5,816 nucleotides of DNA from Bacteroidota bacterium (GTDB taxonomy: Bacteria > Bacteroidota > Bacteroidia > Flavobacteriales > Flavobacteriaceae). The notes below the pieces were generated by a model that was not told the DNA's origin, made no database searches, and was given only the letters and a program-made list of their open reading frames with translations. A program made the position numbers and the translations under genes. Numbering within the stretch: the stretch's first letter is position 1; each line of letters starts with the position of its first letter. This document shows positions 2,805-5,490 of this stretch, in pieces. The DNA lies in assembly GCA_022560715.1 (NCBI GenBank), contig JADFSQ010000148.1, forward strand, positions 1 to 5,816. Direction: 5' to 3'.

Positions 2805-3382
2805 ATACATAATCTGTATATTATATCTGTTATTTTATCTTACTTAATGAGTAATAGTTTTTCTTATTCTCAAAATATCAGCAAACATGAAAAGTGGGAA
2901 TTTATTTTAGAGGACACTGGCGATGTATTACAACTAGCATTACCAATTGCTGCGGGATTAACAACAATTATTAAAAAGGATTGGAAAGGCACTAAACAAT
3001 TCGCTTTCTCTTACGCTACGAGTTTTGCAGTCACTCAATTGTTAAAAAAAGTAGTGCGTAAAGAACGACCAGAAGGAAGAAATTTATTTGATGCATTTCC
3101 GTCAGGGCATACATCTTCTGCGTTTACTGGTGCTTCATTTATACAACGTCGCTATGGGTGGCAGTATGGCAAATGGGCTTATGTATTAGCAGCTCTAGTC
3201 GCCGTAAGCAGAATGGAAGGACCAGAGGATGGCACGACATTTGGGATGTTATGGCAGGAGCAGTAGTTGGCATTGGCAGTACCTATATATTTACTACACC
3301 TTATGAAAAAAAACCAATTGATGTGGGATTTTATTCAAACGGAAAAGACACTTTTGTACTTAGTCTAAAATATAAATTTTAA
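2805..3382 (+). pseudogene. PAP2-family phosphatase, frameshifted
   Basis: Remnant of a periplasmic type-2 phosphatidic acid phosphatase (lipid or polyprenyl-phosphate phosphatase family). The first frame (ATG at 2847, stop at 3264-3266) holds motif 1, KKVVRKERP (K-x6-RP), motif 2, FPSGHTSSAF, and the start of motif 3, SRMEG. The rest of motif 3, WHDIWDVMAG with the expected catalytic His and the Asp, is read in another frame from 3230 to the stop at 3380-3382, followed by GAVVGIGSTYIFTTPY and a short beta-like end. The shift lies between 3222 and 3229: eight bases sit where the usual SR-x5-H spacing would need three. The in-frame sequence before 2847 (from about 2805) encodes IISVILSYL...SFSYSQ, which looks like a signal peptide, but it has an ATA where a start codon would be expected. 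The gene is therefore probably inactive unless the sequence is in error. It is divergent from the kinase operon. Confidence 0.75.
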
Positions 3383-3434: not shown

Positions 3435-3459
3435 AAAATCATACAATTGTATTGATTTT
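3435..3459. repeat. AT-rich inverted repeat, possible terminator or operator
   Basis: A 25-nt near-perfect inverted repeat. AAAATC (3435-3440) and GATTTT (3454-3459) flank the 12-bp palindrome ATACAATTGTAT (3441-3452), with one bulged T at 3453. It ends in a T run and lies 53 nt after the phosphatase remnant, so it could end transcription from the left, but the stem is weak and has no real loop. Its right half overlaps the start of the first intergenic repeat copy. Confidence 0.45.
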
Positions 3460-3505
3460 AAAACGTAAAAAATATAACTTCGCTTATCGTTTGATATAGA
3501 CAATT
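3447..3505 (+). repeat. intergenic direct repeat, copy 1 (left of higBA)
   Basis: This block aligns to 4311-4348 plus 4368-4388. The first 38 positions match 30/38 without gaps. The next 21 match 17/21, once 19 extra bases in copy 2 are set aside. Shared words include TTGTATTGA, CTTCGCT, TATCGT, GATATA and CAATT. The two copies bracket the higB-higA module. The function is unknown; a duplicated regulatory region or the footprint of module insertion are both possible. Confidence 0.7.
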
Positions 3506-3554
3506 AAAAAAGTCCATATCTTTACATTAGGGCGCATAAAAACTTCTCAATAAA

Positions 3555-3586
3555 TTTGGATAATGTTATCTTTTAAGATAACTTTG
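3555..3586 (+). promoter_or_regulatory. higBA promoter (Bacteroidota -33/-7 type)
   Basis: TTTG at 3555-3558 is followed after 20 bp by TAACTTTG at 3579-3586, a full match to the Bacteroidota consensus TTG-N~20-TAnnTTTG. Counting from the -7 box, transcription should begin at about 3590, next to the higB ATG at 3591. The mRNA would then be leaderless or nearly so. A weaker -7-like TATCTTTA at 3517-3524 could give a longer transcript. Confidence 0.7.
3565..3582. promoter_or_regulatory. candidate HigA operator (inverted repeat over the -7 box)
   Basis: Perfect 8-bp arms GTTATCTT (3565-3572) and AAGATAAC (3575-3582) are separated by two bases. The right arm covers the first half of the -7 box. 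Helix-turn-helix antitoxins of HigBA modules repress their own promoter by binding such palindromes, so binding here would block RNA polymerase. The site fits by position and symmetry; binding itself is inferred. Confidence 0.6.
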
Positions 3587-3590
3587 TGAA

Positions 3591-3927
3591 ATGATAAGAA
3601 AGATTATATTCTTTCAAAATCACTTTATTGAATTCTACCAAAAACAGAATAAAAAAGTTAAAGGGAAAATTCAATATGTTTTCGAGATAATTAAACAAGT
3701 TGAGAGAGTACCTGAAAAGTTTTTAAAACATTTATCAGGAACTGATGGACTTTATGAAATTAGAATAGAATACCAATCTAATATATATATCGGATTTTTG
3801 CTGTTTCGATAAAGGAAGACTTGTTGTATTATTCAACGGATTTCAAAAAAAGAAACAGAAAATACCGAAAATTGAACTTGATAAAGCAGAACGATTGATG
3901 TCAAAATACTTTGAAAACAAAAAATAA
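3591..3927 (+). pseudogene. higB: HigB/RelE-type mRNA interferase toxin, frameshifted
   Basis: Toxin gene of the RelE/HigB superfamily (phage Gp49-like branch), whose members cut mRNA at the ribosome. The first frame gives 73 residues ending at 3812 and contains the family stretch GLYEIRIEYQSNIY (53-66). The remainder, CCFDKGRLVVLFNGFQKKKQKIP and on to a C-terminal FENKK, is read in the +1 frame up to a TAA at 3925-3927. The whole locus is 337 bases, one more than needed for 111 codons plus a stop, and about 110 residues is normal for this family. The lesion lies at 3781-3799, in (AT)5-CGGA-T5. Removing one T restores the frame. Removing one AT and adding one T would restore it and recover the family-like YRIFCCF. 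As written, the protein lacks its C-terminal half. The stop is 4 nt before the higA ATG, as expected for a toxin-first higBA operon. Confidence 0.8.
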
Positions 3928-3931
3928 GATT

Positions 3932-4231
3932 ATGAAAAATTACAAGAACATAAAAACATTTGATGAGCTGATTGAACTTGAACACGGAAAAATTGGAACA
4001 GAAAGCAGGAATGAATATGAAGAAGGTGCTCAGATGTTCATTATAAGTGAAATGTTAAAATCGGCAAGAAAAGAGGCAAAAATGACTCAAGAACAATTAG
4101 CTGATAAAGCTGGAACAAAAAAAAGCTATATTTCAAAACTTGAAAACGGAAAAGGGAATATACAACTATCAACTTTAATCCGAATATTTGAACAAGGATT
4201 AAATAGGAGAATCGGATTGACTTTTCTATAG
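3932..4231 (+). CDS. higA: HigA antitoxin, XRE-family helix-turn-helix repressor
   Basis: Intact 99-residue antitoxin from the ATG at 3932, 4 nt after the reconstructed higB stop. A TTG at 3911 in the same frame would overlap higB and is less likely. The N-terminal 35 residues are acidic. An XRE/Cro-type helix-turn-helix follows (about 41-95): MLKSARKEAKMTQEQLADKAG, then recognition helix KKSYISKLENG (63-73) and NIQLSTLIRIFEQGL. In HigBA systems the antitoxin neutralises the RNase and represses the operon; the palindrome at 3565-3582 is the obvious candidate site. The toxin frame is broken as sequenced while HigA keeps a full frame, so it may survive as a stand-alone repressor or immunity gene (inference). 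Confidence 0.88.
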   Translation: MKNYKNIKTFDELIELEHGKIGTESRNEYEEGAQMFIISEMLKSARKEAKMTQEQLADKAGTKKSYISKLENGKGNIQLSTLIRIFEQGLNRRIGLTFL

Positions 4232-4253
4232 CTGAATAAAATACTCACCCTAA

Positions 4254-4268
4254 CAACGGTAATCGTTG
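4254..4268. repeat. short inverted repeat downstream of higA
   Basis: CAACG (4254-4258) and CGTTG (4264-4268) pair around a 5-base loop, 22 nt after the higA stop. No T run follows, so a classical intrinsic terminator is not supported. It might stabilise the 3' end of the mRNA, but support is weak. Confidence 0.3.
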
Positions 4269-4305
4269 CACAAACCCATAAAAAAGAGTAGAATCAACTG
4301 ATTTT

Positions 4306-4313
4306 TATCTTTG
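4306..4313 (+). promoter_or_regulatory. possible -7 box for the RhuM-like/Doc operon
   Basis: TATCTTTG matches the Bacteroidota -7 consensus TAnnTTTG fully and is followed by TATTGAC. No TTG lies 17-23 bp upstream, so the -33 element is missing or degenerate. If used, the transcript would carry a leader of about 125 nt containing the repeat block, the GC-rich hairpin and the 12-bp palindrome. Confidence 0.35.
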
Positions 4314-4348
4314 TATTGACTTTTAAATTTCAAAAAACTATCTTCGCT

Positions 4349-4367
4349 CCTGCCTGCCGTAGGTAGG
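4349..4367. repeat. 19-bp GC-rich hairpin inserted in repeat copy 2
   Basis: CCTGCCT (4349-4355) and AGGTAGG (4361-4367) form a 7-bp stem, with one G-T pair, around the loop GCCGT. Its base composition contrasts sharply with the AT-rich surroundings. Its ends coincide with the gap against copy 1, as expected for insertion of a small palindromic unit or its loss from copy 1. Confidence 0.6.
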
Positions 4368-4379
4368 TATCGTACGATA
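4368..4379. repeat. 12-bp perfect palindrome
   Basis: TATCGTACGATA directly follows the GC-rich hairpin and lies 62 nt before the RhuM-like ATG. Copy 1 has TATCGTTTGATA at the same place, which keeps the outer ten bases but not the central symmetry. It could bind a dimeric regulator, for instance the downstream DNA-binding protein; that is a guess. Confidence 0.4.
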
Positions 4380-4441
4380 TAATCAATTGAAACTGAATAT
4401 ATCTTAATCATTGTGCTTCATGCCAAAAAACAGAATAAATA

Positions 4442-5490
4442 ATGAGTAAAGATCTTACTACATCAGATATACATAGAAAAAATATACTTAATAATAAGTA
4501 TGCTCTTTTGGAGATTGAAAAAGAAATAGCATTTCCTGGAATTCAATTTGAATCATCTTTAAAATATACAAAAAAACAAATAGCAGATTTTTATGATATA
4601 GATTCAAGAACTATTGAAAGATATATTGAACAACATGAACAAGAATTAATAGATAATGGTTATGAAGTATTAAGTGAAACTAGACTTAAATTATTTAAAG
4701 AGATTTATAATCAATCTTATAAAGATGGAGATAAAAGTAATGTTACCGACATTGATGTCGGCGACATAGCAAAAGCTCCTAAACTAGGAGTATTTGATTT
4801 TAGAACATTTTTAAATATAGGAATGCTTTTAACCGAAAGTAATAAAGCCAAACAACTTCGAGCTCTTATTCTAGATATTGTAATTGATACTCTTAACTCA
4901 AAAATAGGAGGTGTCACTAAATATGTTAATCAAAGAGAAGATGAGTTTTTGCCTAGTGCTATACGAGAATTTAATTATAGACAAACTTTTACAGATGCAT
5001 TAGACGAATGCATAGTGGATAATAAATGGAAATATGCTCAATTCACAGATGCAGTTTATAAAAGTATTTTTCATGAAAACGCAAAAGAATATAGGCAGAT
5101 ACTCAAATTAAAATCAAGTGATTCCGCAAGAGAAACGATGTATTCCGAAGTTCTTGATCTAATTGCTGCATACGAAAATGGATTTGCGGACTATTTAATA
5201 CAAAAATATGAGACAATTGGTAGAAAATTATCAATTCCTGAAACTAATACCTTATTTGATGAATTCGAATCAAGCAATCAAGCGGTATTAAAACCTTTGC
5301 TTGAAAAAGCTCGAACCTTAATGGCTAGTAGAGATATGGCTTTCAGAGATGCTTTACACGAAAACTAAAAAACTATGTAACACATCTTAATACGCAAGAA
5401 TTTGAAAAATTCCTTGGAGAAAGAAGTATGGCTTTAGAAGAAAGATTAAAAGATAATATAGAAGTTTTCAAACGACTAAAATACAGATAG
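4442..5490 (+). pseudogene. RhuM-like DNA-binding protein next to a Doc toxin, C-terminal frameshift
   Basis: The first frame runs 308 residues from the ATG at 4442 to a TAA at 5366-5368. It has an N-terminal helix-turn-helix, KYTKKQIADFYDIDSRTIERYI (41-62). A segment FDFRTFLNIGMLL...QLRALILDIVIDTLNSK (118-154) resembles RhuM-type and other phage-like DNA-binding proteins. A helical C-terminal part starts near EFNYRQTFTDALDE (176-189). The following 120 bases are open in the -1 frame and encode KLKNYVTHLNTQEFEKFLGERS and on to FKRLKYR, ending at a TAG (5488-5490) one base before the doc ATG. One A missing from the run near 5363-5366 would explain it (DALHEKLKNYV), giving 349 residues. The protein may be the antitoxin or regulator of the Doc gene instead of Phd (inference). 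The truncated form keeps the DNA-binding part and could still work. The family assignment is tentative. Confidence 0.7.

Follow-up and report, generated by a model that had tools for sequence, protein, structure and literature searches.

The question raised by this locus is why a higBA-like toxin-antitoxin pair in a member of the Flavobacteriaceae stands between two similar blocks, one 5' of higB and one 3' of higA, in a window (the whole stretch of DNA analysed) of 5,816 nt. Very probably, the block is one of about 20 insertion sites in this genome, each combining a predicted promoter, a predicted hairpin and a fixed junction. One of these sites is likely to be occupied by higBA as a mobile cassette, within an integron-like system for which a Xer/IntI-like tyrosine recombinase is the probable driver. 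The features of the window are summarized in Table 1.

Table 1. Features of the window (positions are those of the window; CM, covariance model)
Feature	Position	Strand	Evidence
Site copy 1 (leader), left part of cassette-insertion site, junction after A3526	3447..3526	+	CM match 3448-3541, 93.3 bits, E 6.7e-13, own genome
Predicted promoter of copy 1: TTGA 3452-3455 (-33 type), TAACTTCG 3475-3482 (-7 type), TTG to TA 20 nt	3452..3482	+	boxes
Left arm CGCTTATC, complementary to right-end motif GATAAGCG of other sites	3481..3488	+	left/right covariation
Predicted hairpin of copy 1: GATATAGAC / GTCCATATC, loop AATTAAAAAA	3493..3520	+	covariation
Putative cassette 1, start TT-AGGGCGC, core N7 3529-3535, holds higBA, right limit undefined	3527..4277	+	core pairing 5/7
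higB-like toxin gene in two frames, 3591-3812 and 3796-3929	3591..3929	+	PF05973 Gp49
higA-like antitoxin gene	3932..4231	+	PF01381 HTH_3, E 5.3e-15
Putative end of cassette 1: core partner TCACCCT (4245-4251) and AACAACGGTAATCGTTGCACAAACCC, 5' half of attC-like site	4245..4277	+	core pairing
Site copy 2 (leader), junction after A4410	4311..4410	+	CM match 4312-4425, 115.9 bits, E 5.7e-17
Promoter-like boxes of copy 2: TTGA 4316-4319, TATCTTCG 4339-4346		+	direct coordinates
Palindromic mini-insert CCTGCCTGCCGTAGGTAGG, 19 nt, between -7 box and TATC of copy 2	4349..4367	.	read from the sequence; identical or similar inserts at this point of further copies
Predicted hairpin of copy 2: GATATAATCA / TGAATATATC	4376..4403	+	direct coordinates
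Putative cassette 2, core N7 GTGCTTC 4413-4419, right end would be past contig end	4411..5816	+	
308-aa ORF (4442-5368); in-frame stretch after stop may belong	4442..5490	+	Pfam/NCBIfam match: none
Fic/Doc-type toxin gene, 99 aa	5492..5791	+	PF02661, E 1.4e-11; TIGR01550 DOC_P1, 46.6 bits, cut-off 38.65

A repeat search of the window returned the two blocks as repeat family D3 (3447-3484 and 4311-4348, 38 nt at 79%). Ungapped local alignment of the two intergenic regions gave a score of 36, equalled by three of 2,000 dinucleotide-preserving shuffles, and local alignment with cheap gaps a score of 337, equalled by none of 2,000; the copies align again 3' of the 19-nt palindrome CCTGCCTGCCGTAGGTAGG, which forms the main gap and lies in copy 2. 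The pairwise signal of the two blocks alone is modest, and their homology is secure because the genome holds further copies, found with BLAST, a sequence pattern and a covariance model. Chance similarity was rejected on the strength of the shuffles and the large site family. An earlier account made without database searches (the sequence-only reading) had described the blocks as alike, which the ungapped 38 nt and the gapped score bear out, and had set their limits at 3447-3505 and 4311-4388, which are too narrow, as the conserved part spans about 3447-3526 and 4311-4410. It had also taken both copies to be non-coding, and predicted genes are indeed absent from either block (a 53-aa chance frame on the opposite strand, 4250-4411, overlaps copy 2); its suggestion that the two toxin-type operons share a control region agrees with the same promoter-like region before each. 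The sole Rfam match in the window up to E 1 was snoJ33 (23.9 bits, gathering threshold 45), outside the blocks.

Besides the pair in the window, BLAST and pattern searches found 10 further copies in the genome. A covariance model (R1) built from 11 own-genome copies (alignment A1) gave 22 matches there up to E 1, and 20 of these reached E≤2.4e-4. Among 60 genomes, the own genome included, 11 had a match at E≤0.01, namely all five of the genus (at least 20, 38, 20, 20 and 9 copies, the own genome included) and six of the 32 family members outside the genus (at least 12, 11, 10, 2, 2 and 1 copies), and none of 23 genomes from other families of the order did so; the copy numbers are lower bounds because at most 62 candidates were scored per genome. 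A strict leader pattern, which fits just 30 of the 117 known copies, matched 51/397 Flavobacteriaceae genomes, representing 40/237 genera, and the reversed pattern gave no hit; in GTDB it matched at least 118 stretches. Among the GTDB matches listed (80 titles) were the Flavobacteriaceae genera Winogradskyella, Lacinutrix, Algibacter, Polaribacter, Hyunsoonleella, Lutibacter and others, the remaining titles being metagenome-assembled genomes named Flavobacteriaceae, Flavobacteriales, Bacteroidia or Bacteroidetes. The same pattern, with its fit to 30/117 copies, found no leader in viral contigs; a phage search for the leader returned none, and a plasmid search one weak match (E 0.02, Arcobacter). 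Leaders also occur at orthologous places across genera (genomes G001-G004 versus G033, sites L282 and L286, and others), yet most genera are without leaders.

The site copies share a fixed junction, AACR^TT, and species differ from one another in the DNA that runs from this junction to the end of a palindrome 3' of the gene. At many loci the palindrome lies 3' of the ORF, opens with YAAC and ends with R[AT]TAA[AG]CG (the right-end motif). This motif was found downstream of 38/117 copies, versus 6 antisense and 7 upstream, and in eight of the 38 it stands directly at the junction, without a gene, so that 8/117 copies are empty sites; in a second leader set 9/80 are empty. Orthologous sites fell into 32 groups, of which seven were one genome seen twice and 25 were kept (13 of 79 group members had less than 500 nt downstream). 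The upstream flanks of the leaders align between species as far as the leader, and DNA after the junction is common to none of the 58 orthologous pairs. Five sites show homology again within 13 nt of a right end: two are filled versus empty, with homology back at the junction (622 nt at L098/L129; 889 nt in the own genome versus an empty sister site, L045/L130), and three carry swapped genes (L094/L116, L122/L136, L264/L301). A sixth resumption, at L156/L222, is loose (57/45 nt). Resumption near the right end was thus seen in 7/58 pairs (6/25 groups) and in no other pair, a recovered right flank being missing in most of them.

With these comparisons the sequence-only reading is partly supported. 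It had suggested a mobile toxin-antitoxin unit together with a shared flanking block, and the mobile unit stands; a block that moves with higBA does not, since the block keeps its orthologous place in further species and genera, where it is followed by different genes or by no gene, and neither does a specificity for toxin genes. The further copies that it had proposed to look for are present (20 strong ones in this genome and between 9 and 38 in each of four sister genomes), as are empty sites, at site copies other than those of the window. Synteny of the window with two sister genomes (G003, G004) ends at 2702-2711 and with a third (G001) at 2692, before the PAP2 gene; beyond the break the sister neighbour is a serine-hydrolase-like gene, not PAP2. 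An empty leader lies nearby in G001 (contig C18), at a place not provably identical to the site in the window.

The inserted units carry their own signature. They start with RTT-N7, and the reverse complement of N7 recurs as N7'-AAC where the palindrome, some 120 nt long, opens 3' of the gene. In the first set, 98 of 117 leaders have the TT in place and 91 of these also more than 300 nt downstream; of these 91, 32 show at least six consecutive complementary nucleotides, versus a permuted mean of 1.96 and maximum of 6 (200 permutations), and 26 core pairs have exactly 7 nt. The second set, collected by pattern only, comprises 80 leaders (8 already in the first set), of which 18 are without RTTR, 9 are empty and the rest beyond the tested 50 are too short; a core pair occurs in 29/50, versus a permuted mean of 1.43 and maximum of 5 (300 permutations). 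A pair of at least 6 nt is absent from 59/91 first-set and 21/50 second-set leaders. The cassette ends are imperfect palindromes predicted to pair with an outer and an inner stem; they span 110-126 nt in 41/59 cases, and an inner stem of at least 6 bp is present in 33/59, versus a permuted mean of 9.0 and maximum of 18. Their consensus keeps RTTR and YAAC only, and the canonical attC core boxes RYYYAAC/GTTRRRY are not found; the other core positions vary freely between cassettes and pair within each cassette. Because every cassette has a core pair of its own, 7 nt long and free in sequence, the ends may be recognised by shape, not by sequence.

A candidate enzyme is a tyrosine recombinase of about 380 aa (PF00589 and PF13495), the family of the best partial matches to the integron integrase model TIGR02249. 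None of 60 genomes exceeds the cut-off of this model (265; best protein 210.6 bits), and at 1e-5 matches occur in 59/60 genomes and 14/14 controls, as Xer proteins give them. Two complete recombinases reach 218-229 bits with NF040815 (cut-off 220), and relatives are annotated in Maribacter, Arenibacter and others among 7,999 candidates scored. The nearest PDB sequence is archaeal XerA (4a8e, 144 bits) and the second IntI4 (2a3v, 125 bits). A fold model (mean pLDDT 79.5, pTM 0.57) has Xer 5hxy as its best Foldseek match, but cannot decide between XerA and IntI because structures of both match alike. The likeness to archaeal XerA/Xer in sequence and fold is set against some 105 additional N-terminal residues in the candidate and its place at the head of cassette arrays.

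Those arrays were scanned at 17 recombinase loci, chosen from the best TIGR02249 matches and not at random, with a motif after N7 that was set from first-set pairs after the data had been seen and was used identically in the controls. The loci hold 33 core-paired units, versus 5 and 4 in two controls; 30 lie downstream on the recombinase strand, none upstream and 3 on the opposite strand (reversed control, 1 downstream). Nine of the 17 loci have downstream units, the first of them 48-139 nt after the gene in 6/9. The other eight comprise five with less than 1 kb downstream before the contig end, two broken genes and one divergent array (genome G033, two units on the other strand); the broken genes are those of the own genome (contig C211, two in-frame stops) and of G002, with zero units behind. 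In the ORFs of dispersed sites L001-L174 no recombinase gene was found nearby at E 1e-3, the positive control having worked. The recombinase is frequent, too, in genomes where no leader was detected, and an enzyme shared by leaders and arrays is inferred, as the leaders differ in sequence from the hairpins beside the recombinase. Two loci (L206, L211) have the palindrome AAACACACTAGTGTGTTT right before the first cassette behind the recombinase, which is likely the primary insertion site of that array.

The system shares several features with integrons: one- or two-gene units that include toxin-antitoxin pairs, tandem arrays from a tyrosine recombinase gene, a crossover just 5' of TT, cassette ends foldable into an imperfect palindrome, and promoter-like sequence at the insertion site. 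It is possible, although less likely, that this is a canonical integron with an IntI and attC sites that have simply drifted beyond what present tools can detect, as the shared architecture, the R^TT crossover, the partial TIGR02249 match and the rank of IntI4 in the PDB list would suggest. Against it, the integrase cut-off is reached in 0/60 genomes and the recombinase is without the IntI-type insertion, 60 IntI4 residues (182-241) facing 18 where it is expected. The core is YAAC/RTTR with a free 7-nt inverted pair, units follow the recombinase on the same strand in the 9/17 loci, and many insertion sites are dispersed: nothing like these sites with a predicted promoter, 20-38 per genome, appears in the portions of the integron literature compared.

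Non-classical chromosomal targets of integron cassettes, attG, were reportedly described by Loot et al. in 2024. attG sites are degenerate; those described here belong to one family, about 80 nt long, that is conserved and covarying, opens with promoter-like sequence and keeps orthologous positions across genera. What they have in common with attG is that cassettes enter the chromosome outside the array, as a passage of PMC12901181 also states. A CALIN, according to the part of PMC8618304 consulted, is a cluster of attC sites lacking an integrase, and has in common with the present sites that cassettes lie away from a recombinase gene; here, in contrast, a conserved promoter-hairpin site stands at the start of every dispersed place, some of these places are empty, and the cassette ends are without the canonical core boxes, a CALIN having at least two canonical attC sites. 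Integrons are thought rare in Bacteroidetes, where the excerpted IntegronFinder 2.0 account (PMC9024848) gives nothing but integrase-only elements for its earlier study and then one complete integron, in Salinibacter ruber. The open-access literature searched (subscription papers and preprints lay outside the search) yielded no description of such sites; it was drawn on in part, from PMC9024848, PMC8618304, PMC9668308, PMC8138268, PMC5385486, PMC11023631 and PMC12901181.

The site itself has a consensus (column counts from 89 matches) of TTGAYTTT, an A-rich stretch, TAACTTCG, YT, TAWCR, NNY and GATAWA, followed by a variable arm, MATTRAAAC, a second variable arm, TWTATC, TTAAC, R and TTR. The TTG and TAnnTTYG boxes, both parsed in 88/117 copies, are of what we take to be the Bacteroidota promoter type, and the start of the site is predicted from them to be a promoter. 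Pairing of the hairpin arms is supported by covariation: in 71 distinct hairpins the inner three pairs are paired in 74.6% (permuted mean 43.6%, maximum 52.6%, 2,000 permutations) and the W-W pair in 98.6% (permuted 60.2%, maximum 76.1%). The left arm and the right end also covary, with 13 T-A, 11 A-T and one T-T among 25 parsed sites (24/25 complementary; Fisher 2.7e-6), the T-T exception being an empty site whose tail TTAACGATAAACG parses in two ways. Two unrelated mini-palindromes, of the CCTGCCTGCCGTAGGTAGG and TTTATGCTGAATTAGTTTCAG types, occupy the same point between the -7 box and TATC (window 4349-4367; L006, L019, L025, L028), and a copy on contig C224 has a second mini-palindrome inside the hairpin loop.

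Such anatomy could be that of a regulatory leader, a promoter and an RNA hairpin through which one regulator or RNA-binding protein would control a regulon of unrelated genes: the boxes are 20 nt apart in 76/88 parsed copies, hairpin and loop are conserved, and a sense ORF starts within about 300 nt downstream in 91/117 copies. The genes are unrelated indeed, 72 first ORFs matching 83 Pfam families of no more than three members each, among them hydrolases, dehydrogenases, methyltransferases and an Mrr-type restriction enzyme, and PADLOC families behind leaders have one or two members each. A regulon is nevertheless improbable as the explanation, for it does not lead one to expect empty copies without genes, different genes at orthologous copies, or exact junctions and core pairs after the gene; the block may have a regulatory role in addition to cassette docking. 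Non-autonomous transposons (e.g., of the single-strand IS200/IS605 or REP type) with the leader as left end and the palindrome as right end are the least credible reading, in spite of hairpins at either end, fixed junctions and mini-palindromes inside leaders too, because the leader keeps its chromosomal place with the gene absent or different and is thus a target, not the end of a mobile unit, and because the N7/N7' pair is private to each unit and units stand in tandem behind a tyrosine recombinase.

Returning to the cassette reading, higBA genes are cassettes in several relatives, as exact core pairs enclose HigA homologues there. Of 120 family genomes, 20 contain such homologues; among 28 loci, 8 (in 6 genomes) are enclosed by a tight exact core pair, versus 0, 0 and 0 in three controls. 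In sister genome G001 an intact higB (112 aa) and higA stand behind a leader, and the exact core partners are 731 nt apart. No exact core pair surrounds the four closest HigA homologues (80-95%). The genes of the window are ordinary HigBA, a Gp49/HigB-like toxin before an HTH antitoxin, with higB split over two frames in the assembly (PF05973 profile positions 4-52 at E 0.0011, below cut-off, and 55-89 at E 5.5e-9); the novelty is their setting. Their core pair matches at 5/7, and its YAAC, directly after higA, is the only one in 3601-4311 to reach at least 5/7. The 5' half of an attC-like site that follows is also seen at the L212 cassette end (TACGCACAACACCGGTAACCGTTGCAC), and no 3' half or right end was recognised between 4277 and site copy 2, so that this cassette appears to have decayed or been fused to the second site. 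Behind such sites related species have other genes or no gene at all, which makes it likely that higBA is a cassette that can be swapped. The partner GAAGCAC of putative cassette 2 is absent within the window.

Cassettes of this kind would be excised and circulate as DNA, and their ends would fold, presumably as single strands, into an attC-like hairpin of about 120 nt (basal stem TT-N7/N7'-AA, second stem of 6 bp) that the recombinase would join to the site at AACR^TT. The array behind the recombinase would act as a store, and each dispersed site, by supplying a promoter to the incoming gene, as a separate expression slot for one or a few genes. One such cassette system would explain why unrelated genes of one genome share one start region. 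On balance we favour a distributed integron in the Flavobacteriaceae, in which a Xer-derived recombinase and a cassette store are combined with dozens of promoter-bearing docking sites, long kept at fixed places and independently switchable, and in which ends are recognised by shape. If this is true, a marine family carries a gene-capture system missed by current models, with a recombinase that accepts ends defined by pairing alone and a new answer to how captured genes far from a single integron promoter are expressed; many strain-specific genes of marine Flavobacteriaceae, including toxin-antitoxin and restriction genes, would then be testable as cassettes.

The arrays of G036 and G029 (L205, L207; 11449 and 18214 on the minus strand, 12440 and 13836) contain cassette ends that are short hairpins with the leader loop CATTAAAAC, which suggests that the leader derives from a short cassette end. 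Three genes of the window, PAP2 (2847-3382), higB (3591-3929) and the 308-aa ORF before Doc (4442-5490), are each apparently split by a frameshift; these frameshifts and the stops in the recombinase of the own genome are either assembly errors or decay. Higher-order repeats were considered for the first 800 nt of the window and rejected in favour of unrelated domain copies. A repeated segment (repeats D1, D2) is common to two small ORFs and to the 3-651 and 642-1988 region's histidine-kinase-like ORF, at the end of the latter.
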